A stretch of 64,000 bases of DNA, taken from positions 1 to 64,000 of IMG/VR virus record IMGVR_UViG_3300035698_012959, one strand, 5' to 3'. The notes beneath the pieces are model-generated. The model was not told the origin of the DNA, did no database searches, and was given only the letters and a program-made list of their open reading frames with translations. This document shows, in pieces, positions 31,775 through 61,593 of this stretch. The DNA comes from a virus. The position numbers and the translations under genes were made by a program. Within the stretch, counting starts at the first letter, position 1. The number at the start of each line of letters is the position of its first letter.

Positions 31775-32247
31775 TGAATGTGTCTATATACCCGGGTTCA
31801 TTTAAACCCCCACATAAAGCACATTTTAATATAGTTAAAAATATTTATGCGGAATCAGATAAAGTTATTATATTTATATCCGAAAAAGGAAGAGAAGGAA
31901 TTGAAATAGAACAATCATTAAATGTATGGAATCATTTTAAAAAATATATTGGAGAAAATATTGACATTATAGTAAGTTGTAAATCTCCAGTATATGATAC
32001 TTACAAAGAAATCAAATCAAACCCTAATAATAATTATAAAGTATTATACGGTAAAAATGATAAAAGAAGATTTCAAGATATGAATGGATATAATAATGTT
32101 ACTATTATTGATACCGGAAATATAGAAAGTATAAATGCCACTGATTTAAGAAAATTATTACGTAATAATGAATCTATAAGAAAATATATACCTGAATCTA
32201 TTCCTATACAAGAATATAAAAACATACTATATAGAAATGAAGATTAA
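31774..32247 (+). CDS. Nucleotidyltransferase of the HxGH superfamily (NMNAT-like)
   Basis: The N-terminus MNVSIYPGSFKPPHKAHFNI has the GSFxPxHxxH motif (His14, His17), and NIESINATDLRKLL near the end matches the ISxTxxR signature. Family members adenylylate or cytidylylate phosphate-containing small molecules: nicotinamide mononucleotide, pantetheine phosphate, or glycerol phosphate. The 157-residue length fits NMN or pantetheine-phosphate adenylyltransferase. Substrate is not certain. See the finding on a possible NAD theme. Confidence 0.75.
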   Translation: MNVSIYPGSFKPPHKAHFNIVKNIYAESDKVIIFISEKGREGIEIEQSLNVWNHFKKYIGENIDIIVSCKSPVYDTYKEIKSNPNNNYKVLYGKNDKRRFQDMNGYNNVTIIDTGNIESINATDLRKLLRNNESIRKYIPESIPIQEYKNILYRNED

Positions 32248-32974
32248 ACAAATATTGATTGAGGTACTGAATAAAAGTAAAAAGAATGAAAAAAGTTGGG
32301 GGACATTAGTTCCTCCTTCAACCTTAAAACCTGGTGATGAATTATTTACATATGCTGGTACCGACGCAGTAGAACTAATTAAAGCAGTTCCGTTCTCTCA
32401 ATATTCCCTAATATCACAATATGATAGTGCTCAAACTATTAATGATATTGTTAGTGGTTTTGATGATGATAATGTAGATAAAGAAAGAGATTGGTTAGTT
32501 GCTGTAAAACATGTAATGAATAGCGACAAAGCTGAGGTTAATTATGTGTTTGTTTATGGCTATAATGGAGCTTATTTATCTATTAGGAATAATATACACG
32601 AGTCATATCAGCCTATGGTGCATAAAGGTCTTATGGATAATATTGTAAAAATGGTATGTAGTGACTTGCAAATGGACCCACCTAATAGTATTACGTTCCT
32701 TAGAGATGAATCATATACAAAACAACATTCAAGTTTTGGTGGTTATCAACCATCCACAAAAGATGTAATTGTAGTAACGTATAAAAGAAATTTAGCTGAC
32801 TCAACACGTAGTTTATGCCATGAACTTTACCATCATTATCAAAATGTAAATAATAATTTACCGTCTAATGCTGGTGCTGATGGAGATGAATTCGAAAACG
32901 CAGCAAATGCTTATGCTGGATCTATTATGAGAAAAATTGGTAGAAAATACCCCGAAATATATGAATATGAATGA
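32237..32974 (+). CDS. Zinc metalloprotease-like protein with targeting-type N-terminus
   Basis: HExxH is present at 195-199 (LCHELYHHYQ), and DEFENAANAYAG about 20 residues later offers a third metal ligand (Glu218 or Glu220), the gluzincin pattern. The N-terminus MKIKQILIEVLNKSKKNEKS is a short amphipathic, basic helix with an I-x-E site, like other putative capsid-targeted proteins in this window. If packaged, it would be a head-carried protease that acts on host proteins after injection. Alternatively it acts during assembly. Overlaps the gene before by 11 bases. Confidence 0.7.
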   Translation: MKIKQILIEVLNKSKKNEKSWGTLVPPSTLKPGDELFTYAGTDAVELIKAVPFSQYSLISQYDSAQTINDIVSGFDDDNVDKERDWLVAVKHVMNSDKAEVNYVFVYGYNGAYLSIRNNIHESYQPMVHKGLMDNIVKMVCSDLQMDPPNSITFLRDESYTKQHSSFGGYQPSTKDVIVVTYKRNLADSTRSLCHELYHHYQNVNNNLPSNAGADGDEFENAANAYAGSIMRKIGRKYPEIYEYE

Positions 32975-33446
32975 AAAAATAACACATATCTATCTAGATA
33001 TGGATGGAGTTTTGGTTGCTTTTAGCGTTGGTTATCTAAAATTAACAGGAATAGATATAACAGGAGTCTTCCGTAGTGATGATAAATTCTGGAAACCTAT
33101 AGATAAAGCTGGGTCTACTTTTTGGTCCGAATTAAAATGGACTGTTGATGGTCCTGAGTTATATGATTATCTAAAAAACACTGATATTGAATTAAATATC
33201 CTTTCCGCTCCTTCGATGAATGAATCTTCAAGGATAGGTAAAAAAGAATGGGTAAAATTAAATACCCCAGAAACAGACCTGATATTAGAACCAGCATATA
33301 GAAAGAGAAAATATGCTAATTCTACCAGTTTATTGATAGATGATAGAGAAATTAATATAAAGCAATGGGTATCATCTGGTGGGGTAGGTATCATTCATAC
33401 TAATACAATCAATACAATTAAATTACTTAAAGAACTAAATATATAA
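32961..33446 (+). CDS. HAD-superfamily phosphatase (5'-nucleotidase-like)
   Basis: THIYLDMDGVLVAF gives the catalytic DxD of the HAD family; NILSAPSM is motif II and SLLIDDREINIKQW is motif IV. The overall plan resembles phage and bacterial 5'(3')-deoxyribonucleotidases. The frame is open from 32937, but that start lies deep in the previous gene; the ATG at 32961 (or 32967) gives a normal 14-base overlap and places the DMDGV strand near residue 12. Probably removes phosphate from nucleotides. Confidence 0.8.
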   Translation: MNMNEKITHIYLDMDGVLVAFSVGYLKLTGIDITGVFRSDDKFWKPIDKAGSTFWSELKWTVDGPELYDYLKNTDIELNILSAPSMNESSRIGKKEWVKLNTPETDLILEPAYRKRKYANSTSLLIDDREINIKQWVSSGGVGIIHTNTINTIKLLKELNI

Positions 33447-33447
33447 T

Positions 33448-34038
33448 ATGCAGAGTGGACACTTAAAAAAAGAATTTAATGAATCTGATATTACCCGTAT
33501 AAGGAATTTAGTAAAGGGTAAGTATGGAGAAAAATCTAAATCTCAAGTTGGTTTCTCAAGATCAAAAAATGAAGTAAAATACAAAAATGGTGATAGGTGG
33601 GTAGTAGGAAATACTCATTGGAAAATGGAAGGTGGTGTAGTGCAGAACATACCAAACCTTAATATAATTCGTAAACAAATCACAACTCCATTATTCTGCC
33701 CCTCATGTAGTAATTTAATGAAGGGTAAATTTGATAATAAGATGTATAAAATACATAAAAAATGTTTTGATTGTGTTATTGTATATGAAACTAGATTAAA
33801 AGCAGAAGGAACATTTGATGAATATCAGAAAAAGTTAATGATGGCTAATGCTAAGGATGTACTACATGATCTTAATGATGGACTTGATAACTTTATCGAT
33901 AATTTTTATGATGTAGAACAAATAATGACTGAAATAGGTGATATAGAAGATTGGGAAGGAAGTAGAGTTGACAAAGAAACTATAAAAAAAGATATAATTA
34001 ATCATTTGAAAGAAATCGAGAGCCAAATATTAAACTAG
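33448..34038 (+). CDS. Conserved phage protein with CPSC/CFDC zinc motif, 196 aa
   Basis: Residues 88-115 contain LFCPSCSNLMKGKFDNK and KKCFDCVIVYE, a four-Cys zinc ribbon, followed by KAEGTFDEYQ. The region before it (GDRWVVGNTHWKMEGGVVQNI) is conserved in my memory of proteins from T4-like marine phages; function unknown. The C-terminal 80 residues are an acidic helix. The last gene before a terminator. Confidence 0.6.
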   Translation: MQSGHLKKEFNESDITRIRNLVKGKYGEKSKSQVGFSRSKNEVKYKNGDRWVVGNTHWKMEGGVVQNIPNLNIIRKQITTPLFCPSCSNLMKGKFDNKMYKIHKKCFDCVIVYETRLKAEGTFDEYQKKLMMANAKDVLHDLNDGLDNFIDNFYDVEQIMTEIGDIEDWEGSRVDKETIKKDIINHLKEIESQILN

Positions 34039-34065
34039 ATTCTCATATACTGTACTGATTATTTG

Positions 34066-34087
34066 AAAGGGACCTTGTGTCCCTTTT
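34066..34087 (+). terminator. Rho-independent-type terminator
   Basis: Perfect 8-bp stem AAAGGGAC / GTCCCTTT with a 5-base loop (CTTGT), followed by T-rich TATTGTC. It separates the replication/metabolism run from a late operon that starts with the promoter motif at 34109. Confidence 0.8.
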
Positions 34088-34108
34088 ATTGTCTAAATTT
34101 TTTTGTTT

Positions 34109-34118
34109 GATATTTATA
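34109..34118 (+). promoter_or_regulatory. Late promoter motif GATATTTATA
   Basis: Perfect consensus, 21 bases before the ATG at 34140, just after the terminator at 34066-34087. Confidence 0.7.
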
Positions 34119-34139
34119 TATGAATAAAAAAGAACTTTA

Positions 34140-34439
34140 ATGAAGAAAACTCAATTAGTAAAATTAGTAAAAGAAGGTATGTCAAATCATTTAAGTATGA
34201 TTGATGAAGCCGGAACAATTGCGGCAAATGAAGCTAAATTATCTAAAATGGCTAGTTATATTGACGAAGGTAATAAGATAGGAAAAGTTTTTGATAATAA
34301 ATTATTTGATAAATTCTTAAGTAGCCAAACTTTAAAAACGGTAAAAAAAGAATTATCAAAAGGAATATCTCAAATTCAAAAACAGTATGATAAACTTCAA
34401 ACTGCCCAATTGAAATTGACTACTAGCAGTAAAAAATGA
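34140..34439 (+). CDS. Candidate virion-internal helical protein, 99 aa
   Basis: The start MKKTQLVKLVKEGMSNHL ends in a K-E site and resembles capsid-targeting peptides. The remainder is charged helix (AKLSKMASYIDEGNKIGKVF; SKGISQIQKQYDKLQTAQ), like small T4 internal proteins. First gene of a late operon. Function unknown. Confidence 0.55.
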   Translation: MKKTQLVKLVKEGMSNHLSMIDEAGTIAANEAKLSKMASYIDEGNKIGKVFDNKLFDKFLSSQTLKTVKKELSKGISQIQKQYDKLQTAQLKLTTSSKK

Positions 34440-35041: not shown

Positions 35042-35043
35042 GA

Positions 35044-35655
35044 ATGAAAAGATCCCAATTAATTGATTTAATAACTACAAGTGTTAAAGCTAATAAAATT
35101 AATGTAGATAAAAAAACAGCTAGAGATAGTCCGGTAATGGGCGATAAAACATCCGAAGATATCGTACGAATGTTTCCTTATGTTAATGATACATTAGTAG
35201 ATCTTATGTCTATGGATTATAAGTTATTTATTGGAAAAATCGAATGGGTAGCACCAAAACCAACTACTTTTAGAGTCACATTAAAGAATGGAAATGATTT
35301 TTATTTGACTTGGAATAGTGCTGAATTTATGGTTAATATAAATGGATTAGATTTTGATTTAGGTTCAGTAAGTGATGAATTAAGATGTATCAAGCAGATA
35401 AAAGATTCATTAATATATGGTCCCTTCAATAAAAATGAAGATGATGGGGTAGAAAATGACATATCTGATACAGACAAATCATCTGGCTCTGGAGGTGGTG
35501 GTTTAGACAACCCATTTGATGGAAGTGGGGGAGGTGATGATTTTGACGATAGTGATGATGATTTATTCGCTGGTGATGATATTGATGATCCTGTAGAAAC
35601 AGGAGAAGATGAAATTGGTCCTGATGATGGTGAAGAAATAGACATGGAAGTTTAA
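35044..35655 (+). CDS. Candidate virion protein with acidic tail, 203 aa
   Basis: The N-terminus MKRSQLIDLITTSVKANK is almost the same style as MKRSQLSELINGKLKEMN at 55380. The middle (LFIGKIEWVAPKPTTFRVTLKNG) is a beta domain, and the last 70 residues are Asp/Gly/Ser-rich (DDFDDSDDDLFAGDDIDD), resembling the acidic tail of the scaffold. Suggests an internal-head or scaffold-associated protein. No known family. Confidence 0.55.
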   Translation: MKRSQLIDLITTSVKANKINVDKKTARDSPVMGDKTSEDIVRMFPYVNDTLVDLMSMDYKLFIGKIEWVAPKPTTFRVTLKNGNDFYLTWNSAEFMVNINGLDFDLGSVSDELRCIKQIKDSLIYGPFNKNEDDGVENDISDTDKSSGSGGGGLDNPFDGSGGGDDFDDSDDDLFAGDDIDDPVETGEDEIGPDDGEEIDMEV

Positions 35656-35993
35656 TGAAAATATCAATAACAGAAATATTAAAAGTAGTATTATTTGAGT
35701 CTCAAATAAATGAGGAAACAAAAAATATTAATATAGAAGAAGCTATAAGACTTGTTAAAGCTAGTAATGGTGCTATATTTACTGTTCTTTTTACTAAAAA
35801 AGACGGTAGTGATAGGTTAATGAATGCTAGATTAGGAGTTAAAAAACATCTAAGAGGGGGAGATCTACCGTATGACCCTGTAGCTAAAGGCTTATTACCA
35901 GTTTTTGATATGCAGATAAAACAATATCGAATGATATCATTATCAAAAATAAAAAATGTAAAAATTAATAACAACATATACAATGTTGTTTAA
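35655..35993 (+). CDS. SH3-like beta-barrel protein with targeting-type N-terminus, 112 aa
   Basis: The N-terminus MKISITEILKVVLFESQINEE is an amphipathic helix ending in an L-F-E site. The rest (AIFTVLFTKKDGSDRLMNARLGVKKHLRGG; then YDPVAKGLLPVFDMQIKQYRMISL, as two adjacent segments) matches small SH3-barrel proteins known in phages of Bacteroidota. Such barrels bind nucleic acid or peptides. The combination suggests a packaged binding protein; inference. Confidence 0.6.
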   Translation: MKISITEILKVVLFESQINEETKNINIEEAIRLVKASNGAIFTVLFTKKDGSDRLMNARLGVKKHLRGGDLPYDPVAKGLLPVFDMQIKQYRMISLSKIKNVKINNNIYNVV

Positions 35994-36016
35994 TAAGTTA
36001 TAATAATCAAATAAAA

Positions 36017-37068: not shown

Positions 37069-37072
37069 TAGG

Positions 37073-37524: not shown

Positions 37525-38864
37525 ATAAAAGAATAGTTATTGTAGGTGCTGGTGTTGCCGGAATAAATGCTGCTACCAAATTAATTGATGAAGGCTACCC
37601 TGGTAACCTAATTACAGTAATAGATAAAGGACAAGATCCATATAATAGACCTGAATCAGAATTAATGGAAGGTATGTTAGGTGCTGGAGGTTGGAGTGAT
37701 GGTAAATTAACGTATCACACATCCATAGGTGGTCAATTATCAAAATATTGTGGGGATGAAAAAGCGATGGAATTGATGGATCAAGTAATATCCAATTTTA
37801 GGCGTTTCCACCCAAAACCAGAAGAAATCTTTATGTCTGATCCTAAAGCTGAACCTGATTTTATTAAACCACATTTTGGATTACGATTATTTCCTGTATG
37901 GCATATTGGTTCAAATTACCTACATAAAATCGCCATAAACTGGTATGAATTTTTACTCGAAAATAAAGTTAATTTTGAGTGGGGGGCTGAAGTTTGGGAT
38001 ATTGATTTTAAGTCAAGTATAGTAAGTGCCAAAGGTGAAGAAGAGATGGAATTTTGGTATGAAAAACTAATATTTGGTGTAGGTAAATCCGGAATTGATC
38101 TAGGTAAGAAATTAACAGAATTATATAAACTTAAAACCGAACCAAAATCAGTACAGATAGGCGTTAGATTTGAAGCACCCCAAAAATACTTCCAAAAATT
38201 AATTGATGTTAGTTATGATTTTAAATTATATCAAAAACCAACTGATAAAGTATCGTTAAGGTCTTTTTGTACTAATAATAATGCCGCTTATGTAGCTGTT
38301 GAAGAAACATACGGTGATATAAGTTATAATGGACATGCTAAAAAAGGTGAAGAATTTAGAAACGATATGACTAACTTTGGTATTTTAATGGAAATTAAAG
38401 GAATTGATAATCCATTTGAATGGTGCAGAGAAATAGTTCAGAAATTTCAACGTAATGTAGAGGAACCAGATACCAGTGCAAAAAACACTAGCCGATATTA
38501 TCAGTCTGGATTATATTATTCTCCTTCGGGTAGGAGACCTTCAAATACTTCAGAAGGAGATAAAGTTAAATGTTTCCAAACATATGATATAGATAATATT
38601 AGGAGTATCTTGGGTGGGTATTTTGAACACATTGAAGAATTCATAAATTGCTTAAAATTGGTATTCCCAAATATAAATAATGACTATGGTATGTACCTTC
38701 CCGAAGTTAAATACCTATCACCCGAACCCTTAGTTGATTATGAAAATTTATCAATAATAAACCACCCAAAAGTGCATTTTGTTGGTGATGCTTTAAGTGC
38801 TAGAGGTATTACAGTATCAGGTTCTCAAGGGATATATGTTGCCGAAAATATACTAATAAAATGA
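37521..38864 (+). CDS. FAD-dependent oxidoreductase (COG2509-like)
   Basis: Dinucleotide-binding motif IVGAGVAGINAATKL is at residues 6-20, then an acidic end of strand 2 (ITVIDKGQDP). The C-terminal FAD motif VHFVGDALSARGITVSGSQGIYVAENI is intact. GAGGWSDGKLTYHTSIGG and SGLYYSPSGRRPSN are also conserved in FAD-dependent dehydrogenases of this group. Substrate unknown. Such enzymes are rare in phages, so this is an acquired metabolic gene. Coupled to the tiny gene before and to the ADP-ribosyltransferase-like gene after (ATGA). Confidence 0.75.
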   Translation: MNKRIVIVGAGVAGINAATKLIDEGYPGNLITVIDKGQDPYNRPESELMEGMLGAGGWSDGKLTYHTSIGGQLSKYCGDEKAMELMDQVISNFRRFHPKPEEIFMSDPKAEPDFIKPHFGLRLFPVWHIGSNYLHKIAINWYEFLLENKVNFEWGAEVWDIDFKSSIVSAKGEEEMEFWYEKLIFGVGKSGIDLGKKLTELYKLKTEPKSVQIGVRFEAPQKYFQKLIDVSYDFKLYQKPTDKVSLRSFCTNNNAAYVAVEETYGDISYNGHAKKGEEFRNDMTNFGILMEIKGIDNPFEWCREIVQKFQRNVEEPDTSAKNTSRYYQSGLYYSPSGRRPSNTSEGDKVKCFQTYDIDNIRSILGGYFEHIEEFINCLKLVFPNINNDYGMYLPEVKYLSPEPLVDYENLSIINHPKVHFVGDALSARGITVSGSQGIYVAENILIK

Positions 38865-39373
38865 ATTACAATAAAAAACGATTACAAGAACTAGCTGGGA
38901 TAGACATACATGAAGGAAAACAAGTTGGCACGTTATATCATTTTACCAACTTTGAAGGTTTGAATGGGATATTATCTTCTAATTTATTGAAAGTGGGGGA
39001 TGATGCTAATTTTGAGACTGGAGGTAATATAGGAAATGTGTCATTAACTCGTGATAAAAATCTTTGGTATTTCTCCTTCCGTCTTGAATTAGATGGTGAT
39101 AAAATGTCCGATAAATACAAAATAACCCCATACCAGTGGAATGGGGGTGATCAAGAAGCAGAGGAGTATATTGAAAGAGATATATCTGATATAAGTTCAT
39201 ACTTACTAAGTATAACAGTTTGGGTTAATAACCCTGATGATACCATAAGTAAATCTATAATCAATCGTATAATTAAAATGTATCCTAATTTGGAATTCGT
39301 GTATCAAGATTTTAGAGGAAAGGATTTCATCGAGTTTCCAAACCCCCAACCCACAAAATATAACATAAAATGA
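38861..39373 (+). CDS. ADP-ribosyltransferase-like protein with capsid-targeting-type N-terminus
   Basis: Residues 25-43 (LYHFTNFEGLNGILSSNLL) and 61-66 (SLTRDK) match the start and second strand of small ADP-ribosyltransferase folds of the DarT/Tpt1 type. EAEEYIERD at 99-107 may supply the catalytic Glu after KYKITPYQW. The N-terminus MNYNKKRLQELAGIDIHEG holds the LQE-LAG motif shared with virion proteins here and with the scaffold C-terminus. A functional parallel is T4 Alt, a packaged ADP-ribosyltransferase that modifies host RNA polymerase. Catalytic residues are proposed, not proven. Confidence 0.6.
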   Translation: MNYNKKRLQELAGIDIHEGKQVGTLYHFTNFEGLNGILSSNLLKVGDDANFETGGNIGNVSLTRDKNLWYFSFRLELDGDKMSDKYKITPYQWNGGDQEAEEYIERDISDISSYLLSITVWVNNPDDTISKSIINRIIKMYPNLEFVYQDFRGKDFIEFPNPQPTKYNIK

Positions 39374-42886: not shown

Positions 42887-43330
42887 ATGAATTATAATTT
42901 AAATGAAATGGCTCAGATTAGTGGTGAGTTAAAAGGAGCTATAGAAAGAGTAATAGAAGAAAATCCAGAAGAAAATGGATTAGTACTTAAAAAAATCATT
43001 AGAAAAGACAGTGGAGTACAATCTGCACTTGATGGTGATCAACTATATGATAATCAATTGAATAAATTCATAGCACTTCAGAAAGGTGAGCGTACACTAT
43101 CTCAAAGAGGAAGAAAACCTGGTGAAGTGACATCTCAACTATCAATTATTAAATCCATTTTATCTAAATCATCTGAGGGGATAAGTGATTTCAGTGATGA
43201 TGAAATAAAAATGGTTGATAAATTACATTCATTAGTTAATGGAGGTGAAAGTGTTGAAGAAAATGATTATAGCATTAACAGACTTCAAGAGTTAGCTGGG
43301 ATCGAATCTAAAAAAAAACTTTGGAAGTAA
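42887..43330 (+). CDS. Candidate virion-internal protein, 147 aa, possibly frameshifted at its end
   Basis: Helical protein with GRKPGEVTSQLSIIKSILSK in the middle and the RLQELAGIES motif at residues 132-141, close to the C-terminus. Directly after that motif comes a run of nine A (43310-43318). Removing one A joins this frame to the next open frame, giving a product of about 220 residues. First gene after the late promoter 42852-42859. Function unknown; motif and position suggest a head-associated protein. Confidence 0.55.
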   Translation: MNYNLNEMAQISGELKGAIERVIEENPEENGLVLKKIIRKDSGVQSALDGDQLYDNQLNKFIALQKGERTLSQRGRKPGEVTSQLSIIKSILSKSSEGISDFSDDEIKMVDKLHSLVNGGESVEENDYSINRLQELAGIESKKKLWK

Positions 43331-43561: not shown

Positions 43562-44158
43562 ATGAAATTAACAAAAATAATCAAAACTGTTCTCCAAGAG
43601 TATAACCCACAACGAGAAAAAGAACGTGAATCTCCATCCCCCGAGGTACATCCTGATACAAAACCACTAGAACGTCCAACCAGAAGACGTACACTAACCC
43701 CTCCTACAGAAGCTCCACGCACTAAACCTAAAGCAGAAAATTTTGAAGACAAAATTTCTAGCAGATATTCTGACATGAAAGATAAAAGCAGAATGCAAGA
43801 ATTAGCAGGTATGCCACGGGATGAAAGGGGTCAATTTGATGATGAGGAATACCGAGATGAAGAAGCAGATGAACGTAAATACTGGGGTGTCGGTGATGAT
43901 GATATAATGGAAAATGAAGAATTCGAAGATAACTACTCACATCTAAGTGATACTGATATTATAGAGTGGGCTAATGATAATGATCTGGATTATGACTTAG
44001 ATTTCGATGGTAATTTAATAGACAGGCAAGGAATATTAGATACTATATTAGGATTGACGGGGGAGTATGACGATGATGAATATGGTGATTATGAAGAAGA
44101 CCCATTTATGGATGATTTTGACCCGGCAGGAGGCAGAGGTTTGAGCTCTTACATCTAA
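43562..44158 (+). CDS. Candidate virion-internal protein with cleavage-like sites, 198 aa
   Basis: The N-terminus MKLTKIIKTVLQEYNPQ has an amphipathic helix ending in L-Q-E (residue 13). A disordered Pro/Arg/Glu-rich segment leads to RMQELAGMPRDERG, where L-A-G follows Glu80. The C-terminal half is strongly acidic (DEEYRDEEADERKYWG; EYDDDEYGDYEEDP). Two processing-type sites and a charged body resemble T4 internal or scaffold-associated proteins. Function unknown. Confidence 0.55.
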   Translation: MKLTKIIKTVLQEYNPQREKERESPSPEVHPDTKPLERPTRRRTLTPPTEAPRTKPKAENFEDKISSRYSDMKDKSRMQELAGMPRDERGQFDDEEYRDEEADERKYWGVGDDDIMENEEFEDNYSHLSDTDIIEWANDNDLDYDLDFDGNLIDRQGILDTILGLTGEYDDDEYGDYEEDPFMDDFDPAGGRGLSSYI

Positions 44159-48833: not shown

Positions 48834-49796
48834 ATGAATGTACAACAAATAATAAAAGAAGAAGTAGTAAAAGTTCTTAAAGAACAAACTGCTATAGTCA
48901 ATAACCATATAGTATCATACGAAGATGATGATGAATTAGAAATTATAAAAAAAGATGATGCTGTAAAAAGTATAAAAAAAGTAGACGGTACAGTAATAAA
49001 AGAAATGGCTGGTAAACCATCCATACATTATTCACTAAAACCCAACCATGAAGAAAAACTAAAAAAATATATAGTAAGAACTAAAAAGGATTCAATAATA
49101 ACTATAGTTACTAAATTAACTGAATTACTAAAAATAAAGCCTAATCAAACTGTAATGGATTTATTTACTCAGATTAGAGAAATATATAAAGGTCAGGTAG
49201 ACATATTAGCTAAGGTTAAGAATCACCAAAATATTAAATATTATTTATGGGGGGGGTTAACATCAGATAAATTTAATGCTAGATACTTAGATGTAAAAGA
49301 TCCGGTAACTGGTATCAATTATACTAAAGGTAATTTGAACGCGATAGATTGGACTCCATTTTCAAGAACTAAAGATGCTAAAGAATTAGATGATTTCGAA
49401 AAATCAAAAATACTAAAAATAAGTAATCCCGAAGAATTTGAAAAAATAGCTCAAAACCGTAAGAAAAATGCTAATCCGATCACAGATGCTGTGATAGAAT
49501 ACAAAATACTTAGAGGTAAATATTTCAAACATAAAAATGGTAAGGATGCCTCTTCACAAAACCACTTTCCAGTCATCCAAGGTAAAATGAATGATTTATT
49601 AAATATAGATGTTGCCGTCGCTATATTATATCAATGGGATAAAGAATATATTACATTACCATTAGATAATCCATTAAAAATATTTGGTGAAAGGAATGGT
49701 CTTACTGATGGTATGAAATCCCCACAACTTACATCCAAATACAAAACTACTCTCAATCAATTAATTAAAGATAAAAAAGTAGTATCTTTAGGTTAA
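48834..49796 (+). CDS. Candidate virion-internal protein, 320 aa
   Basis: The N-terminus MNVQQIIKEEVVKVLKEQ is an amphipathic helix with I-x-E and L-K-E sites, followed by a charged linker. The body contains YYLWGGLTSDKFNARYLDVKDP and HFPVIQGKMNDLLN and looks globular. It sits directly before the terminase under its own late motif. No family recognised. Confidence 0.55.
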   Translation: MNVQQIIKEEVVKVLKEQTAIVNNHIVSYEDDDELEIIKKDDAVKSIKKVDGTVIKEMAGKPSIHYSLKPNHEEKLKKYIVRTKKDSIITIVTKLTELLKIKPNQTVMDLFTQIREIYKGQVDILAKVKNHQNIKYYLWGGLTSDKFNARYLDVKDPVTGINYTKGNLNAIDWTPFSRTKDAKELDDFEKSKILKISNPEEFEKIAQNRKKNANPITDAVIEYKILRGKYFKHKNGKDASSQNHFPVIQGKMNDLLNIDVAVAILYQWDKEYITLPLDNPLKIFGERNGLTDGMKSPQLTSKYKTTLNQLIKDKKVVSLG

Positions 49797-49850: not shown

Positions 49851-52607
49851 ATGAGTACTCCTTTCGATTATAAACAAGTAATAAGATTAGAATACGCAAA
49901 ATGTGCGAGTGACCCAGTTCACTTCATGAGAAAATTTTGTATGATTCAACATCCTACTAAAAGTAGGATATTATTTAATCTATATCCATTCCAAGAAAGT
50001 GTATTAAACCAATTTATTGTAAAGAATAATAATATTATTCTTAAATCAAGACAACTCGGGATATCAACTTTAGTAGCTGGTTATTCTTTATGGTTGATGT
50101 TATTCAATACAGACAAAAACATTTTATGTGTTGCTACTAAGCAAGATACAGCTAAAAACATGGTTACGAAAGTAACATTCATGTATGATAATTTACCATC
50201 ATGGTTAAAAGGTAAGAAAAAACCTCTAGAGAATAACAAATTATCTCTAAAATTAACTAACGGGTCATTAATTAAAGCAGTTTCAGCCGCCGCAGATGCA
50301 GGTAGATCAGAAGCCGTATCATTTTTAATTATTGACGAAGCCGCATTTATCGAAAATATAGAAACTATATACGGTGCGGCTCAACAAACTCTAAGTACCG
50401 GTGGTGGTTGTGTTGTATTATCAACTCCTAACGGTAGTGGTAATTGGTTTCACAAACAATATACTAAAGCTACTAACGGAGAAAATTCATTTAACCCATT
50501 AAGACTACCATGGACCGTTCATCCCGAAAGAAGCGAAGGTTGGAGAAAAATACAGGAAGACGATTTAGGTACCAGATTGGCCGCTCAAGAGTGTTTTAGT
50601 GGGGATACTATAATATATACTATAAATGGACCTAAATTTATAAAAGATATTGAGATAGGAAATAAAGTATTGAGTCATGATGGTACATATAATAATGTTA
50701 TAAAAACCATGAGTCATATTACTAATAAAGCTGTAGAAATAAAAGGAGGTTTAAATAATATAAGCAAGTATACTACATTAAACCACCCTTTCCTAAATAC
50801 ACATAACGAATGGGAAGATGTAGAATCAATAATATCTACTAATAATAAGGTAATATTATTTCCTGTCGATGTAAAATATAATAATTCTTATAGTACAATA
50901 GATCTAAAAAATCATATAATATCTAATAATCCAAAATATTTTCCACTAAAATATAATGATGAAAGTATATGGTTAACAAAAACCAATATCCTTAATAGAA
51001 ACATAAAATTTGATTATGATTTAGGATTTTTAGTTGGATGTTTCCTGTCAGAGGGTTCTTTAGCTAATAATAAGGTGGAGTTTTCATTTAATGGTAAAAC
51101 AGAAAGAGATGGCTTTCCCATACAAATAGAAAATATATTAAATAGTAAATTTAATATAAATAAATTCTCATATTACACTTCCAAAATATGGTCTGGTAGT
51201 AGTAAATTGTATATAAAGGATCAAATATTCCATAATTTCATAAAATTATGCATACAGGGGGGTAGTTTATGTCACCAAAAATCCCTAAGTGAATTCTTCT
51301 ATGATAATGCCAATTTAGAAACTTTAAGAGGTATTATGGATGGTGTGTTAGTTGGGGATGGGATGTTGAAAGATGAATATAATATAAGCCTTTTATTGAC
51401 CTCAAGGAAATTGATATATGATATACTTTATATAAGTAATTTATTAGGTATACATAATGTTACTATAAAAGAAGGTAAATCAATAAATCCCAGAGATTCT
51501 TCTATTTACAAACCTAATTATACTTTAACATGGTTAAAAACTAAAACAAATTCCCAATCAAAAATATTTAGCGATAGAACTAAAAATATAGTATTTAATC
51601 AAAAATCTTCTAACAAATTCATATTTGATGTTAACCCCAATGTTAGTTTAAAAATAAACCCCACCCAACATAACATTACAGTATTTAATTTAGAAGTAGA
51701 AAACACCCACACATATACAACAGAATATGGGGTTGTGCATAATTGTGATTGTGACTTTTCCTCATCTGGTGATACATTACTAAATAAAGATACAATAAAA
51801 TATTATGAAGATAATATTATGGAACCCGTTGAACGAAGGGGAATAAATAGTAATTATTGGATATTTCGCAGAGCAAGAAATGATAAAGATTATGCCGTAA
51901 TAGTTGATACTTCTAGAGGAGACAGCAATGATTATTCTACAGTCCAAGTAATAGATATAGAAAACATGGAACAAGTTGCTGAACTTAAAGACATGATTTC
52001 CCCTAAAGATTTAGGAAACTTGATTGTTGCCATAGCTTCTGAATATAATGATGCCCTTCTGATAGTAGAAAACAATAATATGGGTTATCAAACTGTTACT
52101 ACAGCAATTGATAGAGGTTATAAAAATGTATATTATTCTCCCAAAAACGATCAAATAACTGCGGATCAATGGATTAATAAGATGCAAAATCAAGACCAAC
52201 TAACTCCAGGATTCAATACTTCAGTTAAGACAAGACCTTTAATAATAGAAAAGTTCAGAGAATTTATGGATAATAAAGTATTCATTATTAATTCAAGAAG
52301 AACTGTAGATGAAACTAAAACATTTATTTGGAAAAATCACAAAGCCCAAGCCCAATCAGGGTACAATGATGATTTAATAATACCATTAGGTATAGTTGCT
52401 TATTTACGAGATACTGCTTTAAGATTCAAAAAAAATAATCTTGAATTAACTAAAATTTCAATAGCTAACATAACTAATATTAATGATAATAACCCACAGT
52501 CTGTACCTAACATCCCTAATGACAGTAGACGACCTAATCTATACACACCAAATCCTTATAAAATGATGGTAGGAGGTAAAGTAGAAGATATTAGTTGGCT
52601 ACTCTGA
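49851..52607 (+). CDS. terL: Terminase large subunit (gp17-like) containing an intein
   Basis: Packages DNA into proheads and cuts concatemers. The exteins show Walker A SRQLGIST (about residues 65-74), Walker B FLIIDEAAF (157-165) and the nuclease start VIVDTSRGD (Asp about 685). An intein of 384 residues (248-631) interrupts the chain; spliced, the terminase would be 534 residues, a normal size. The extein junction would read RLAAQE-CDCDFSSSGD, which matches the QEF-x-CDF region of gp17-type terminases. Start at 49851 follows the late motif 49827-49834. Confidence 0.95.
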   Translation: MSTPFDYKQVIRLEYAKCASDPVHFMRKFCMIQHPTKSRILFNLYPFQESVLNQFIVKNNNIILKSRQLGISTLVAGYSLWLMLFNTDKNILCVATKQDTAKNMVTKVTFMYDNLPSWLKGKKKPLENNKLSLKLTNGSLIKAVSAAADAGRSEAVSFLIIDEAAFIENIETIYGAAQQTLSTGGGCVVLSTPNGSGNWFHKQYTKATNGENSFNPLRLPWTVHPERSEGWRKIQEDDLGTRLAAQECFSGDTIIYTINGPKFIKDIEIGNKVLSHDGTYNNVIKTMSHITNKAVEIKGGLNNISKYTTLNHPFLNTHNEWEDVESIISTNNKVILFPVDVKYNNSYSTIDLKNHIISNNPKYFPLKYNDESIWLTKTNILNRNIKFDYDLGFLVGCFLSEGSLANNKVEFSFNGKTERDGFPIQIENILNSKFNINKFSYYTSKIWSGSSKLYIKDQIFHNFIKLCIQGGSLCHQKSLSEFFYDNANLETLRGIMDGVLVGDGMLKDEYNISLLLTSRKLIYDILYISNLLGIHNVTIKEGKSINPRDSSIYKPNYTLTWLKTKTNSQSKIFSDRTKNIVFNQKSSNKFIFDVNPNVSLKINPTQHNITVFNLEVENTHTYTTEYGVVHNCDCDFSSSGDTLLNKDTIKYYEDNIMEPVERRGINSNYWIFRRARNDKDYAVIVDTSRGDSNDYSTVQVIDIENMEQVAELKDMISPKDLGNLIVAIASEYNDALLIVENNNMGYQTVTTAIDRGYKNVYYSPKNDQITADQWINKMQNQDQLTPGFNTSVKTRPLIIEKFREFMDNKVFIINSRRTVDETKTFIWKNHKAQAQSGYNDDLIIPLGIVAYLRDTALRFKKNNLELTKISIANITNINDNNPQSVPNIPNDSRRPNLYTPNPYKMMVGGKVEDISWLL
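50592..51743 (+). mobile_element. Intein with LAGLIDADG homing endonuclease in the terminase
   Basis: The intein begins CFSGDTIIYT (Cys248 of the precursor) and ends HTYTTEYGVVHN before Cys632, the classic splicing borders: N-terminal Cys, a TxxH-like LNHPF block, and C-terminal His-Asn followed by Cys. The two endonuclease helices are LGFLVGCFLSEGSL (about 390-403) and LRGIMDGVLVGDGML (about 492-506), both with acidic residues kept, so homing may be active. The coding region is in frame with the terminase, with no stop. Confidence 0.93.
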
Positions 52608-54538: not shown

Positions 54539-55383
54539 ATATAAAGCACAATAAACTAAAAAATACAGGTATATTATATGAATTGTTAATTAACCAATTA
54601 ACATCAGATGTATTCCACGATAAAGATTCAAAAGTAATATCTATTATAAAAGAGTTTTATAGTAATACTGAAATATCTAAAGAATATAAGCTGTATAAAA
54701 CTATATTAACATCCCAGTATGATAATGTAGGTAAAGCAAATAATGTGTTAGAAGCTATTAATGAAACTCATACAAAAATAAACAAGAAAAAATTAAAACA
54801 AGAAAAATACCGTTTAATTAATGAAATAAAATCTAATTATGATATCAAAGATTTTTTTAGACATAAAATCCCAAATTATAAAGTGCATGCCTCTATATAT
54901 AATTTGTTAGAATTTAACTCTACAGTAGATTTTATATCCCCACAATTCGTCATTAATAATAAAATAACATTACTAGAATATATAACAAATATTAATAGTA
55001 ATGAGGATATAAAAGACGATACATTAAATGAATTTAAAAATACTGAAAAAGGTACACGTTTATTGATATACCAATCTTTAGTTGATAAATTTAATACAAA
55101 ATACACTAGTCTGTCAGAAGGGCAAAAAGGTATATTAAGTCAATACATTAATAATATGAATAATCCTCTATTATTGAAAGAATGTATAAATAACCACATT
55201 AAGAATATTAAAAGAAAATTAAAATCATGTGTAGTAAATAATAATGTTATTAAGATTAAATTGGAAGAGATAAACAGAATATTGATTCCTTTAGGGAAAG
55301 GTGACTATGTCAAAGATGACGATTTTATAAATATACTACAATATTATGAGTTAATTAAAGAAATCAAATTAATAAGCGAATGA
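54535..55383 (+). CDS. Head-module protein of marine T4-like phages, 282 aa
   Basis: The start KLKNTGILYELLINQLTSDVF and STEISKEYKLYKTIL-like helix (residues 48-62) recall a conserved protein located between portal and protease in marine T4-like phages, probably a prohead core component. Entirely helical and basic. Role inferred from position. Confidence 0.65.
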   Translation: MNIKHNKLKNTGILYELLINQLTSDVFHDKDSKVISIIKEFYSNTEISKEYKLYKTILTSQYDNVGKANNVLEAINETHTKINKKKLKQEKYRLINEIKSNYDIKDFFRHKIPNYKVHASIYNLLEFNSTVDFISPQFVINNKITLLEYITNINSNEDIKDDTLNEFKNTEKGTRLLIYQSLVDKFNTKYTSLSEGQKGILSQYINNMNNPLLLKECINNHIKNIKRKLKSCVVNNNVIKIKLEEINRILIPLGKGDYVKDDDFINILQYYELIKEIKLISE

Positions 55384-56540
55384 AAAGGTCTCAACTTAGT
55401 GAATTGATAAATGGGAAATTGAAAGAAATGAATGCCACTTCGGGTGGGGAAGCTTATGCTCCCCCTCTAGGTAAAAAAGTGGATGAAATTAAATTAAGAG
55501 AACCAGGTGCTTCACATATAATTCGTGATCCGCATAGAATATCAACTTTACCTAAACTTAATTTAACAATAGGAAAGTATAATGTTTCTAAAGACAAAGT
55601 TGGATTACAGGTACCTTTTGGTACTGTAACTAAAATGACATTAAACAGAGCTAGAAACGTATTTGACAAATTAGGTATTACTATTGAAAAAGCATTTTTA
55701 GGTTGGTTGGTAAGATCACATGAATATACGAATGATGATGGGGAAGTGAAAAAAAATTTCTATGTAAATATACGTACAACTTATTTATTATCTACTTACA
55801 AAAATAAACCTGTAATGTTTGTTCAAAATCAAACTTCATCTAATCTAGCAGGGCAGGCATATTTGTATAGTGAATATTTTAAATCCGGTAAATCATTAAG
55901 ATTAAAACCAGACAATCCACCAAAAATCCACACACACCATAGCGGGGCCTCAACTAGTAAGTACCAATGGCAAGATAGTAGTGATGTAAAAGCAGATGAT
56001 GCCACCACAAGTAAAGAAATGATTTTAAGAGCATTAAAATACGATCAATTAAGTGAAGTTAAATTAAGAGAACCTGGAGTGTTAGCTAGTTACAAAGAAG
56101 AAGCAATAGCTGATTTAACAGATTTAAAACAATCATATTTTGACGTTAACGATAATGACGACAATTATAATAAAGCCGTAAGTTACATACGAGGTGCAAA
56201 GGATGAAATGGAATTAAGTCGAAGATTGGAAAGAGTATTTAAAGACCCAAGTGTTTTAGATGATATTAAATATAGAATAAATAATGACGGTGGTACATTA
56301 AATGAAATATCTACTCGCAAATTTAACAAACGAATATCAAGAGTAAGTCCATTAAGTAAAGTTAATAGATCTATTAGTGAAATTAGTAAAAGATTAAAAG
56401 AAATTAATTCAGTGATAGGACACACTTCAAAATTAATGAATGAATCTGGGAGTGGTAATAGTAGAACTAAAGAAAAAATTGCTAAATTATTAGTCGATAT
56501 CACAAACACAAGAACTAATTTAAGAAATTTAATGAAATGA
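55380..56540 (+). CDS. Head-module protein with two KLREPG motifs, 386 aa
   Basis: N-terminus MKRSQLSELINGKLKEMN is of the capsid-targeting type. VDEIKLREPG ends at residue 43 and LSEVKLREPG at 233; if these are cut sites the protein would yield three pieces. The first central domain (KVGLQVPFGTVTKMTLNRARNVF) looks globular, and the C-terminal 90 residues are coiled-coil. Coupled to neighbours by ATGA overlaps. Probably a prohead core or internal protein processed by the protease encoded downstream. Confidence 0.6.
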   Translation: MKRSQLSELINGKLKEMNATSGGEAYAPPLGKKVDEIKLREPGASHIIRDPHRISTLPKLNLTIGKYNVSKDKVGLQVPFGTVTKMTLNRARNVFDKLGITIEKAFLGWLVRSHEYTNDDGEVKKNFYVNIRTTYLLSTYKNKPVMFVQNQTSSNLAGQAYLYSEYFKSGKSLRLKPDNPPKIHTHHSGASTSKYQWQDSSDVKADDATTSKEMILRALKYDQLSEVKLREPGVLASYKEEAIADLTDLKQSYFDVNDNDDNYNKAVSYIRGAKDEMELSRRLERVFKDPSVLDDIKYRINNDGGTLNEISTRKFNKRISRVSPLSKVNRSISEISKRLKEINSVIGHTSKLMNESGSGNSRTKEKIAKLLVDITNTRTNLRNLMK

Positions 56541-57160
56541 TAAAACTATCAAATATATTAAAAGAAATCAGATTAAGAGAACCCAAAAATCATGCTTATG
56601 TGTCTATGGATGATGTAAAACTAGGTATGGAATTTCTAATACATGATATGGAAAATTACTTATCTAATTCTAAAAATGATTTCACAGAAATACCACCTGA
56701 TGAAATGGGGTATGTTATTATTAATGAATTTTATGATTTGATAGTGTTCCATATTAAAGAACATTTAAAAAATAACGATAATGAGATTTATTTCGATATA
56801 GAAAGTAATAAAGATATTTATGAGTATCTAACAAATATTGAAGGTAGTGATATAATACAAATTATTATAGATGAATTAATTGTTCCTGCGGGATATAAAT
56901 TAATAACACCACAAAACACTAAATATTTTATAGGAAGTTTTATAGATCGAAATAAATCTACTGGAACCGAATTCATCAATCAAACTCACATTAGTGATCC
57001 AAGTTTATGGAAAGAATATATAAAAGATGGAAATGGATTCGATGATTTTTTAGATTTAATTGATTTTAATATAGATAAAATAATTAATGGCCTTAATGAA
57101 GGAGATATAAATAGTATTTTAGTAAATGAATTGGGATTACCAGTAGAAGAATTTAATTAA
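56537..57160 (+). CDS. Head-module protein with N-terminal RLREP motif, 207 aa
   Basis: Begins MIKLSNILKEIRLREPKN, combining a short amphipathic helix with the KLREPG-type motif seen in two other proteins. The rest is acidic and alpha/beta with DIIQIIIDELIVPAGYKLITP. Likely packaged in or built into the prohead core. No family known. Confidence 0.55.
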   Translation: MIKLSNILKEIRLREPKNHAYVSMDDVKLGMEFLIHDMENYLSNSKNDFTEIPPDEMGYVIINEFYDLIVFHIKEHLKNNDNEIYFDIESNKDIYEYLTNIEGSDIIQIIIDELIVPAGYKLITPQNTKYFIGSFIDRNKSTGTEFINQTHISDPSLWKEYIKDGNGFDDFLDLIDFNIDKIINGLNEGDINSILVNELGLPVEEFN

Positions 57161-57167
57161 ATAAAAA

Positions 57168-58010
57168 ATGAAAAGTATAAAACAACAATACATAGATCTT
57201 AATGAAAATAAAATGAGCAAAGCTCAATTTATGAGAAATGCTAGAATGACATTACCTCATTTGATTAGCTCAACCAACAACTTTACAGATGCTGTAAAGA
57301 TATTGACTAATAAAGGTATATTACTGGAAGTGAAAGCTAAGAAACAAGTTACAATTGAACCTCAATATCAATACCACCCACACGAATTAGAATTGGGAAT
57401 TGAAGACGAAGGTGGGGCTGATGAACAGGATATGTTTGATAAGCTTAAAGAAAAAGTAGTAAAAAACTTAGAAAAAGATGCAAATTATTACACACATAAA
57501 AAGGGTGGAATAAAAAAACGTACCAAGGCTAAAGAAGATCAATTTAAATATAGAGAGATAAAAAAGAAATATATTTCAGATAATCAAATGGAAAAATCTA
57601 AGGAAAAAATAGTTGAAACTAAACTACGTAAATTAGTTAGAAAAGCTATACTTCTTGAATTATCATCAGATTCATTTAAGAGCTATGCTCGAAAATCAAC
57701 AGCCAGGGGAGAAACAAAAAGAGTAGGGAAAGGTTCTCAAAACTTCTTTCATCAATTTATGGGAAAATCTTTACTAGGTGGTGAAATAACAAACATATCA
57801 TACATAGAGGAAATTAAAGAAGTTGGAGTAGAAATTACAGCAAATCATAGCGATATGTATATCAATTATTCAGTAGAGGATGATAATTGGGGAATGGATA
57901 AACCCGTGGATAGAAAAGATGCAAGAATTCTATCACTAATAGCTAAAAAAATTAATCCTAATACCAAATATGGGAGTGGTAGCAAAGGATTTAAGATAAA
58001 AGGATATTAA
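57168..58010 (+). CDS. Head-module protein, 280 aa
   Basis: The N-terminus (QQYIDLNENKMSKAQFMRNAR, then STNNFTDAVKILTNKGIL) matches a module I have seen in structural proteins of Bacteroidota phages. A Lys-rich middle and ETKLRKLVRKAILLELSS (another L-x-E helix) separate it from a C-terminal globular domain (KEVGVEITANHSDMYINYSV). The basic middle could bind DNA. Function unknown; position implies the prohead. Confidence 0.6.
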   Translation: MKSIKQQYIDLNENKMSKAQFMRNARMTLPHLISSTNNFTDAVKILTNKGILLEVKAKKQVTIEPQYQYHPHELELGIEDEGGADEQDMFDKLKEKVVKNLEKDANYYTHKKGGIKKRTKAKEDQFKYREIKKKYISDNQMEKSKEKIVETKLRKLVRKAILLELSSDSFKSYARKSTARGETKRVGKGSQNFFHQFMGKSLLGGEITNISYIEEIKEVGVEITANHSDMYINYSVEDDNWGMDKPVDRKDARILSLIAKKINPNTKYGSGSKGFKIKGY

Positions 58011-58022
58011 TAAAATAGAACA

Positions 58023-58652
58023 ATGAAACAACTATTAGTAGATACTATATTATTTGAAGTAGAACCAAGCGTTATTAATGAAAATATTAAAAATGGTGGT
58101 ACATTAACTGTTAAAGGTCCAATACAAAAAGCGGAGACTAAAAACGGTAATGGTCGGGTATACTCTAGAGAAATATTAAATAGAGAATTCAAAAAATATA
58201 ACGAAGGTCCCATTAAAGAAAGTAGATCAACAGGTGAGTTGGATCACCCCGATTCACCTGTTATTAACTTAAAGAATGTATCACATATCATACGTAATAT
58301 ATGGTGGGATGGTGATACTGTTATGGGGGAAATAGAAGTATTAACTACACCTTCAGGTAATATATTAAAAGAATTAATTAAATGTGGGGTAAAAGTAGGA
58401 GTATCATCTCGAGGTATGGGTTCTGTTAAACAAATAGGTGAAACCGTTGAAGTACAAGAAGATTTTGAACTATTATGTATTGATTTTGTCTCAACACCTT
58501 CCACTCCGGGAGCTTACATGGATTCCATAAATGAATCATTAAATTTATCAACACCTCCTGTAGAATCATTATATACTAATATTGATAATTTAATAACCGA
58601 AATATTGTGTAATCGCATAGGATATTGTCCTTGCGATTTACCTACTAATTAA
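58023..58652 (+). CDS. Prohead protease (gp21-like)
   Basis: Serine protease that digests the core and trims capsid proteins during maturation. His75 in TGELDHPDSPV and the Ser in VGVSSRGMGS (128-129) match the catalytic centre of T4-type prohead proteases; FVSTPSTPGAYM near residue 160 is also conserved. The N-terminus MKQLLVDTILFEVEPSVINEN has L-F-E and I-N-E sites that could be autocleaved. Length 209, equal to T4 gp21 (212). Confidence 0.92.
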   Translation: MKQLLVDTILFEVEPSVINENIKNGGTLTVKGPIQKAETKNGNGRVYSREILNREFKKYNEGPIKESRSTGELDHPDSPVINLKNVSHIIRNIWWDGDTVMGEIEVLTTPSGNILKELIKCGVKVGVSSRGMGSVKQIGETVEVQEDFELLCIDFVSTPSTPGAYMDSINESLNLSTPPVESLYTNIDNLITEILCNRIGYCPCDLPTN

Positions 58653-58844: not shown

Positions 58845-59969
58845 ATGATAAAAAAGAAAAACAAAACTAATGATCTTTTAAAAGAAGCAATTGCTGACGC
58901 TCAAAGAATCAAACAAACAGCATTAGAAAATGCTAAAATGGTAATAGAAGAAAGCCTATCACCAAAAATCAAAAAAATCCTTTCAGAAAAACTGAATGAG
59001 ATGGCAGATGATGATCTTGATGAAGGTATGTATGATTCCGATGAAGATTTAGACATTGATGAAATTCTTAGAGAATTAGAAGAAGATGATCTTAATGAAA
59101 ATGAAGATTTAGACGAAGCCGCTGGTGATGATGAAGATAAACCAAAGCCAAAAGCAAAACCTAAAACTGACGATAAACCAAAACCAAAACCAAAGGCCAA
59201 GCCGAAATCAGAAGATGATGACGATGATGACGAGGATGATGATGAAGGATTCGGTGATGATGACGATGATGATCTAGGTGTTGAAGATGATATGTCTGAC
59301 GGTGATGGTGATTTAGGTGGTGAAGAGCAAGACGTTAAAGATATGAGTGCATCTGAATTATCAGAGTTAATTACATCAATTATACAAGGTGTAATGGGGA
59401 CCGGTGAGGAAGATGGATTAGGTGGAAGTGATATTGGACCTATTGGAGCCGAAGATGGATTAGATTCAGGTAGGGATGATATTGGATTTGGTGATGATAT
59501 GGAAGGTGAAGAAGACGATATTGACATTAGTGAAGATGAGTATGGAATTGAAGAAGACGAAGATGATATGGTTTACGAATCATTGAAACAAATTAATAAA
59601 TTACGTGAAGAGTTAAAAGAAACTAATTTATTAAATTCTAAATTACTATACATGAATAAGGTGTTTGCAGGTCAACAATTAAATGAGCAAGAAAAGATTG
59701 GTGTGATGAAAGCATTTGATAAAGCTGATTCAGTAAAGGAAGCAAAATTAATCTTTGAAACTATTCAAACTAGACCAAAAAGAAAAGAAACAGCAAATTC
59801 TAGAAATAGAAAAACAAAGTATAGAAGCACAGCAGGAAAAAGACAGATTAGAGAAGTTAAAGGCAGTGCTTCAAGCGTATTAGGTGGAAGTATGAGAAAA
59901 CCAATCGTTAAAGTTAACGAAACAGTTGCCAGATGGCAGAAATTGGCAGGATTAGATACATCAAAATAA
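58845..59969 (+). CDS. Prohead scaffold protein (gp22-like)
   Basis: Internal scaffold that guides capsid assembly and is then degraded. The N-terminal helix (AIADAQRIKQTALENAKMVIEES) and a very long Asp/Glu/Lys-rich middle (residues 58-245, with Pro-Lys repeats KPKPKAKPK) are typical. The C-terminal helices (INKLREELKETNLLNSKLLYMN) resemble gp22. The last 18 residues, VNETVARWQKLAGLDTSK, carry the R-x-Q-x-LAG motif found in several candidate cargo proteins. Lies just before the capsid gene, as in T4. Confidence 0.85.
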   Translation: MIKKKNKTNDLLKEAIADAQRIKQTALENAKMVIEESLSPKIKKILSEKLNEMADDDLDEGMYDSDEDLDIDEILRELEEDDLNENEDLDEAAGDDEDKPKPKAKPKTDDKPKPKPKAKPKSEDDDDDDEDDDEGFGDDDDDDLGVEDDMSDGDGDLGGEEQDVKDMSASELSELITSIIQGVMGTGEEDGLGGSDIGPIGAEDGLDSGRDDIGFGDDMEGEEDDIDISEDEYGIEEDEDDMVYESLKQINKLREELKETNLLNSKLLYMNKVFAGQQLNEQEKIGVMKAFDKADSVKEAKLIFETIQTRPKRKETANSRNRKTKYRSTAGKRQIREVKGSASSVLGGSMRKPIVKVNETVARWQKLAGLDTSK

Positions 59970-59997
59970 AAAAATAAATTAAACAATAAATATAAAA

Positions 59998-61593
59998 ATG
60001 AATTTAAAAACACTTTTAGAAAGTTCAAACCAAGAATTAGTAGCCAGTAAAAAGGAATCTAATGCACTTGTGAACAAATGGATATCTAGTGGATTACTAG
60101 AAGGTTTTTCTAATGATCATGATAGAAATAACATGGCCGTTATATTAGAAAACCAAACAAAAAGACTACTTAACGAAGCCAACGTAACAGGTGGTACAAG
60201 TAGCATGAATGGTGGAAACGGAGAGAATTGGGCAGGAGTAGCATTACCATTAGTACGAAGAGTATTTGGTGAGATAGTTGCAAAGGATTTCCTTTCAGTA
60301 CAACCAATGTCATTACCTGCAGGTCTAGTATTTTACCTAGATTTTAAGTATGGATCAACTAAATCTGGTAATACAGCTGGTGATTCATTATATGGTAACC
60401 AAGCTACTAATCACCCAAATGTTCAAGGGTTAGATGTAGATGGTGGATTGTATGGAGAGGGTAAATTTGGATATTCTCTAAATTTATCAAGTGGAAGTGC
60501 TTCACCTTCAGCAACATCTTCAGCTACGTGGAGTGATATTAATCATGATACTACATTCGACACAGCTAGTTTTAGCGTGATTAGTGTACCAACTAGCTCA
60601 ATGACCAGTTTAGATACTGATGTAATTAGAGCAATTACAGTAAGTTCAGCATCTGTACAGTACCCAGTAATGCAACAATTTACAAAATTGTCTGGTGGTA
60701 ATATTAATATAGTTATAAAAGCTACTGATATTGTAGATGCAAACACAGGATCATGGGTTGCTTTATATCCTAAAGCGACTTCTATGGAAAATAGAGGAGA
60801 TTTTGAAGATAGAACAGGAGATGATTTATCAATCCCATCTATTGATGTTAAACTAAAATCTGAAGCAATTGTTGCAAAAACTAGAAAGTTAAAAGCACAA
60901 TGGACACCGGAATTTAGTCAAGATTTAAATGCATACCACAACATTGATGGTGAAGCTGAATTAACAAGTATGTTAAGTAATTATATCGCTCTTGAAGTTG
61001 ATTTAGAATTACTAGATATGTTAAAGAATGATGCGGCAACAACAGGTTATTGGTCAGCAGTTAATAACGAACAATGGAATGGAGTAGATGGCTTTACTCA
61101 AACTACAGCAACCACAGGTGGTTTTTATAATACTCAAGGTGGATGGTTTTCTACATTAGGAACTGTGTTTCAACAAGTATCAAATAAGATACACCAAAAA
61201 ACACTGAAAGGTGGAGCGAGTTTCGCAGTAGTTTCTCCAGCAGTAGCAACAATTCTAGAATCAATTCCCGGATTTGCGGCTGATGGTGATGGTGAAAAAG
61301 CAGAATTTAATTTAGGTATATCTAAAATGGGTTCATTAAATAGTAGGTATAAGGTTTATAAAAATCCATACCAAACATCTAATGAAATATTAATGGGATA
61401 CAAAGGCGGACAATTCCTAGATACAGGAGCTGTTTATGCACCGTATATTCCCTTAATGATGACTCCATTAGTTTATGATCCTATCAACTTTACACCTAGA
61501 AAAGGTTTGCTTACTAGATATGCTAAGAAGATGGTAAGACCTGAATTTTATGGTAAAATATATGTTAAAGGATTAGAATCGTTAGGATATTAA
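59998..61593 (+). CDS. Major capsid protein (gp23-like)
   Basis: The N-terminal propeptide ends at RLLNE-ANVTGG, so cleavage after Glu60 (L-N-E before Ala) fits the T4-type rule and position (T4: after residue 65). Then come GENWAGVALPLVRRVFGEIVAKDFLSVQPMSLPAGLVFYLDFKYG (described over residues 74-118) and, near the C-terminus, PYIPLMMTPLVYDP and KGLLTRYAKKMVRPEFYG, all typical of gp23. Length 531 (T4 521). A strong terminator follows. Confidence 0.95.
   Translation: MNLKTLLESSNQELVASKKESNALVNKWISSGLLEGFSNDHDRNNMAVILENQTKRLLNEANVTGGTSSMNGGNGENWAGVALPLVRRVFGEIVAKDFLSVQPMSLPAGLVFYLDFKYGSTKSGNTAGDSLYGNQATNHPNVQGLDVDGGLYGEGKFGYSLNLSSGSASPSATSSATWSDINHDTTFDTASFSVISVPTSSMTSLDTDVIRAITVSSASVQYPVMQQFTKLSGGNINIVIKATDIVDANTGSWVALYPKATSMENRGDFEDRTGDDLSIPSIDVKLKSEAIVAKTRKLKAQWTPEFSQDLNAYHNIDGEAELTSMLSNYIALEVDLELLDMLKNDAATTGYWSAVNNEQWNGVDGFTQTTATTGGFYNTQGGWFSTLGTVFQQVSNKIHQKTLKGGASFAVVSPAVATILESIPGFAADGDGEKAEFNLGISKMGSLNSRYKVYKNPYQTSNEILMGYKGGQFLDTGAVYAPYIPLMMTPLVYDPINFTPRKGLLTRYAKKMVRPEFYGKIYVKGLESLGY

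Follow-up and report, generated by a model that had tools for sequence, protein, structure and literature searches.

The T4-like phage analysed here probably brings proteins into its prohead by means of short docking tags of two classes, which a gp21-type protease would subsequently cut, and we give this reading a probability of about 0.73. The class A tag would be the equivalent of the T4 capsid-targeting sequence (CTS), an N-terminal helix with a phi-phi-x-E site at its end, and the class B tag (R-M/W-Q-K-L-A-G-I) matches the conserved C-terminal residues of the scaffold. The evidence consists of sequence patterns and their statistics, the modularity of the tags, their co-occurrence with the prohead protease, and the resemblance of class B to the end of the scaffold. 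The window, which is the whole stretch of DNA analysed, covers positions 1-64000 of a virus record of 67,403 bases. Judged from its sequence it comes from a bacterial virus, a far T4-like phage, whose capsid protein has as nearest isolates Flavobacterium phage immuto (54.7% identity) and Microcystis phage Mel-JY01 (47.7%). The gp21-type protease and the gp22- and gp23-type partners expected of a T4-type CTS system are all encoded in the window, among the following head genes.

49851, terminase, and 52643, portal
55380 to 56540, plus strand: MKRSQLSELINGKLKE; family kept between portal and protease in relatives, the gp67/gp68 slot by T4 order
57168 to 58010, plus strand: conserved head-region protein adjoining the protease, with homologues in many relatives
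58023 to 58652, plus strand: prohead protease of the gp21 type, S77 (PF03420, E=2.7e-30; phrog_207, E=4e-55)
58845 to 59969, plus strand: scaffold of the gp22 type, C-terminus RWQKLAGLDTSK (22-member family, C-terminus conserved)
59998 to 61593, plus strand: major capsid protein of the gp23 type (phrog_138, 1e-67), predicted cleavage RLLNE/A, site conserved in relatives
62888 to 63226, plus strand: conserved protein that follows the 61729 gene, MRRHKIMTLLKE; MIKLxDILFE or a similar start in homologues

The protease carries GELDHP and SSRG motifs and has an ILFE site in its own N-terminus. The terminase large subunit reading frame (49851-52607, 918 aa) seems to contain an intein (CFSGDTIIYTINGPKFIKDIEIG ... 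VVHNC), and the tail region encodes a 1204-aa protein (22084-25698) with long Thr-Pro repeats (TPTNTPTNT).

An earlier, sequence-only reading of this DNA had proposed a family of eleven head-packaged proteins whose N-terminal helices mostly contain L/I-x-E. All eleven reading frames (32237, 34140, 35044, 35655, 38861, 43562, 45623, 48834, 55380, 56537 and 58023) are present, and the N-termini quoted for 35655, 48834, 43562 and 55380 are correct. [LI]xE lies within residues 1-25 in ten of them, 35044 being the exception; since 22-residue stretches drawn at random from this proteome contain it in 26% of cases, and since the list had been chosen for having it, this is weak evidence. We therefore fetched T4's own tagged proteins to define the pattern. 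The N-termini of IPII and IPIII (MKTYQEFIAEA), gp24 (MAKINELLRES) and Alt (MELITELFDED) share the register phi4-x-x-phi7-phi8-x-E10. This register fits published IPIII mutants, in which targeting depends on residues 4 and 7 and processing on residues 8 and 10, and it is consistent with the gp21 cleavage motif L/I-x-E (PMC9026906).

The resulting pattern A (phi-x-x-phi-phi-x-E, starting at residues 2-14, proline excluded), which was set after inspection of T4 and some relatives' genomes, fits 112 of 1265 N-termini (8.9%) in ten related genomes and contigs, or 9.0% with 695 protein families weighted equally. Internal stretches of the same proteins fit at 2.4% (p=1e-31), and N-termini of seven control phages at 22/805 (2.7%; p=5e-9); four of these controls were searched for S77 and none has it, and phi17:2, phi38:1 and crAss001 were taken as non-T4-like. 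Restricted to the exact T4 register, the counts are 29 of 1265 related and 2 of 805 control N-termini (p=4e-5). Within the window, 10 of 84 N-termini fit pattern A compared with 2.8% internally (p=1e-4), so that two or three of the ten matches are expected by chance.

Could these N-termini be ordinary amphipathic helices, produced by AT-rich composition and start-site bias? The frequency of LxE by itself (26%) would suit such an origin, as would the hydrophobic moment of the N-terminus, which did not separate head from tail genes. We nevertheless disfavour this explanation and consider it very unlikely, because the controls reach 2.7% as against 8.9% even though five of the seven are at 33-38% GC, because the start of the motif peaks at residues 4 and 6, and because one domain carries different tags in different relatives, as described below.

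Of the eleven listed proteins, seven have a T4-like capsid-targeting N-terminus as defined by pattern A (32237, 34140, 35655, 43562, 48834, 56537 and 58023), and four fail it (35044, 38861, 45623 and 55380; 45623 has LLE at residues 6-8 only, with no register match). One of the seven, 58023, is the gp21-type protease itself and cannot be kept as cargo. The window genes bearing on the proposal are as follows.

32237 to 32974, plus strand: candidate cargo beginning MKIKQILIE, pattern A in shifted register; weak metallopeptidase matches
34140 to 34439, plus strand: tagged candidate, MKKTQLVKLVKE, pattern A in shifted register
35044 to 35655, plus strand: no cleavage site in the window copy; several homologues have one (LKE)
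35655 to 35993, plus strand: tagged candidate, MKISITEILKVVLFE with a WYL_2/Sm-like domain, pattern A in shifted register (WYL_2, 2.6e-4; phrog_2267, 1.4e-12)
38861 to 39373, plus strand: ADP-ribosyltransferase-like protein preceded by a class B tag variant, RLQELAGI (residues 7-14)
42887 to 43330, plus strand: class B RLQELAGI at residue 132 of 147, close to the C-terminus (21.2 bits versus the scaffold C-terminus profile)
43562 to 44158, plus strand: class A N-terminus MKLTKIIKTVLQE in shifted register; internal class B RMQELAGM at residue 77
48834 to 49796, plus strand: class A candidate MNVQQIIKEEVVKVLKE in shifted register
56537 to 57160, plus strand: class A, MIKLSNILKE, exact T4 register

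From these patterns the candidate cargo in the window would be 32237, 34140, 35655, 38861, 43562, 48834 and 56537, and perhaps 42887 and 62888. The core of the proposed family is retained, reduced from eleven to about six to eight window proteins, and the suggestion that the set is unusually large is doubtful, several relatives having as many or more tagged N-termini. The 32237 protein has a HELYH zinc-peptidase-like motif and is homologous to a 530-aa relative in G001 (MSLGKYIAQFLLE); the scan of close relatives gave no matches to it. Four homologues of 34140 (L147, L149, L152 and L153) retain its N-terminus (MKVSQLKQLIKE). A structural model of 35655 from 25 sequences (pLDDT 83) has a helix at 5-16, lower confidence at about 11-20 and then a well-predicted domain. 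Profile searches with 48834 gave no significant family match. The 38861 protein, which resembles Tox-ART-HYD1 weakly (8.3e-5, below the Pfam cut-off), is a candidate functional analogue of T4 Alt; its single-sequence model is poor (pLDDT 51), a fold search at E<=0.001 returned nothing, and homologues were found neither in the close-relative scan nor in isolated phages. Outside the list, 8282 fits pattern A, probably by chance since its homologues do not.

Two further features of this region were observed. A short I/V-K/R-LREP peptide, preceded by an acidic residue, occurs in three unrelated proteins (44201-45622, 55380-56540, where it is found twice, and 56537-57160), and this motif C (I-K/R-LREP) is almost confined to the window among the sequences compared. 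Cytidylyltransferase-like proteins recur in the phage group (31774-32247; L123, 9267-11801; L085, 11243-13162), with a tag-like N-terminus in some relatives and none on the window copy.

Tagged genes lie preferentially within 20 kb upstream of the terminase in some close relatives, at 11/22 versus 8/195 elsewhere in immuto and 8/28 versus 12/210 in G001; the corresponding figures for the window are 6/26 versus 5/58 (p=0.07). A small gene next to the baseplate genes (11499-11801; immuto L083, 21526-21945; G001, 82076) has a class A-like N-terminus in several relatives. Pattern A is consequently not exclusive to head cargo, given that 11499 and its relatives bear it, and the same gene is what would favour the idea that the tags direct proteins to the tail, the baseplate or the host membrane. 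Such a destination is very unlikely in view of the clustering upstream of the terminase in close relatives, the T4 capsid-tag residue pattern, the association with the prohead protease and the resemblance to the scaffold's C-terminus.

The class B peptide had escaped the sequence-only reading, which listed 38861 for its N-terminus. All 22 scaffolds compared have R-[WMFLI]-[QKR]-x-L-A-[GN]-[IL] at the C-terminus, and a profile of this end scores at least 14 bits in 15 other families, compared with a mean of 0.55 sequences for column-permuted controls, a resemblance beyond chance. An unbiased DNA scan of viral contigs for RMQKLAGI returned at least 81 matches over at least 80 loci; among the matches listed, 66 are near C-termini (mostly of scaffolds), 14 near the N-termini of varied proteins and one elsewhere, the N-terminal examples typically reading MKKQILSEEFxRMQKLAGIITE. 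S77 was present in all five tested motif-B contigs above 90 kb. In the window the peptide is N-terminal in 38861, C-terminal in 42887, internal in 43562 and at the scaffold end, and in putative cargo generally it mostly occupies the N-terminus, with L/I-x-E after it. The C-termini of T4 gp22 and of the scaffold of the T4-like cyanophage S-CREM2 lack the peptide, so class B cannot be called universal. No RMQKLAG-type peptide was found in the literature searched, and class B would represent a new, second tag class that recurs on about 15 unrelated proteins. We lean slightly toward a natural second loading route. Cargo would carry RMQKLAGI as a copy of the peptide by which the scaffold docks at its C-terminus, would use the scaffold's binding site alongside the scaffold or in competition with it, and would later be released by the prohead protease; each tag class would then mimic one end of the scaffold. 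Three non-scaffold proteins (L216, L218 and L273) combine, on one chain, a class A-like start with a class B end.

The tags are modular. In relatives, the WYL_2/Sm-like domain of 35655 is found behind class B tags (L139, L140, L154, L155), behind class A tags (L143, L146, L149, L150) and behind a third tag, MDNFDLKRFLVENKLTRNS (L157, L160, L165), or a KQYLNE form (L141, L142), often with a Pro/Glu-rich linker between tag and domain, and the exact T4 register recurs in 22 families. The domain has no tag extension in L166-L184 and four isolates. S77 is encoded in 11 of 19 contigs with a tagged copy versus one of 22 with an untagged copy, namely G045 (p=3e-4), a comparison in which absence of S77 from a contig is not proof because many of the contigs are fragments. 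Domains matched by tagged proteins in relatives include ART-PolyVal (2e-10), SAM lyase (1e-10), cytidylyltransferase (2e-7), zeta toxin (kinase; 5e-8) and WYL_2 (4e-8). It has been proposed that phages with contractile tails commonly package ARTs in their heads (PMC9503650).

A virion proteome with coordinates has been published for S-CREM2 (PMC10665884, Table 3). Virion proteins in that table begin MKDFDSFLEE (SAM hydrolase), MKDLHSFLTE (ORF13), MQTFSMFFSE (ORF136) and MKNFSSFLTE (cytidylyltransferase), and a kinase with an annotated GTG start begins VKRFDAFLTE. All four exact-register reading frames found by the gene caller belong to the virion set of about 40 of 199 ORFs (p=0.0014); the table lists virion proteins, without cleaved N-termini. 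An annotated Cas9-like endonuclease that the authors found in the virion (L127, 7704-10313) has RFASFMAEA near its N-terminus, resembling a capsid tag. Agreement with this proteome, together with the T4 register, the enrichment, the tag swapping and the S77 co-occurrence, gives good support, for the phage group, to the original suggestion of a T4-like capsid-targeting peptide.

Alternatively, the tagged proteins might not be cargo destined for the host; as parts of the prohead core or assembly machinery, they would bind the scaffold and undergo processing. The 55380 protein, which is on the earlier list and fails pattern A, is probably a prohead core protein in the gp67/gp68 position rather than cargo, 57168 also has a core-gene position, and the T4 core proteins gp22, gp67 and gp68 are likewise gp21 substrates (PMC5694885; PMC9026906). 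For the set as a whole we regard this explanation as unlikely, because tags are carried by enzyme-like domains without an obvious structural role (ART, SAM lyase, cytidylyltransferase) and such enzyme-like proteins are listed among S-CREM2 virion proteins (PMC10665884).

Our preferred model of tag-directed loading would proceed as follows, with the docking partner, packaging, cleavage and ejection all inferred from sequence. The tag would bind the scaffold core or its partner and so place the tagged protein in the prohead core, and the capsid shell would close around the docked proteins. The gp21-type protease would then cut after Glu, removing the tag, and the freed cargo would remain in the head, probably to be ejected with the DNA. 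The capsid protein site of the group, NQAKQ[LI][LIV]xE, is followed mostly by A, G or S; the window site RLLNE/A matches SFLTE/A of T4 gp23, and cargo tags end in the same phi-phi-x-E. If the model is correct, sequence could be used to predict head cargo across a large group of T4-like phages, most of them uncultured, many genes of unassigned role would acquire testable functions, the prohead core would recognize cargo by a simple rule, and two portable tags would be available for loading proteins into capsids.

The closest known system is the T4 CTS of IPII, IPIII, Alt and gp24, with which the class A tags share a short N-terminal peptide of the form phi4-x-x-phi7-phi8-x-E10, an S77 protease, a gp22/gp23-type core and shell, and unrelated cargo, which in T4 includes an ADP-ribosyltransferase. 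Unlike in T4, many of the tags are displaced by at least two residues, the tagged set in relatives is larger and more varied, and there is a second, scaffold-end tag class that the gp22 C-terminus lacks. The SAM hydrolase, kinase and cytidylyltransferase of the S-CREM2 virion (PMC10665884) start similarly with MKxFxxFLxE, an aromatic-rich version of the tag that differs from that of the window phage. The propeptides of phiKZ-like phages and SPN3US resemble the tags, as proposed here, in that a prohead protease cuts head cargo after Glu, but many of them exceed 100 residues and their motif is S/A-x-E (PMC5694885, PMC9026906). Class B recalls engineered loading of P22, whose scaffold binds coat through its C-terminus and in which a fused scaffold segment carries cargo in (PMC9962691); in contrast to that man-made arrangement, the scaffold-like end described here seems to occur naturally on cargo and to be followed by a protease site.
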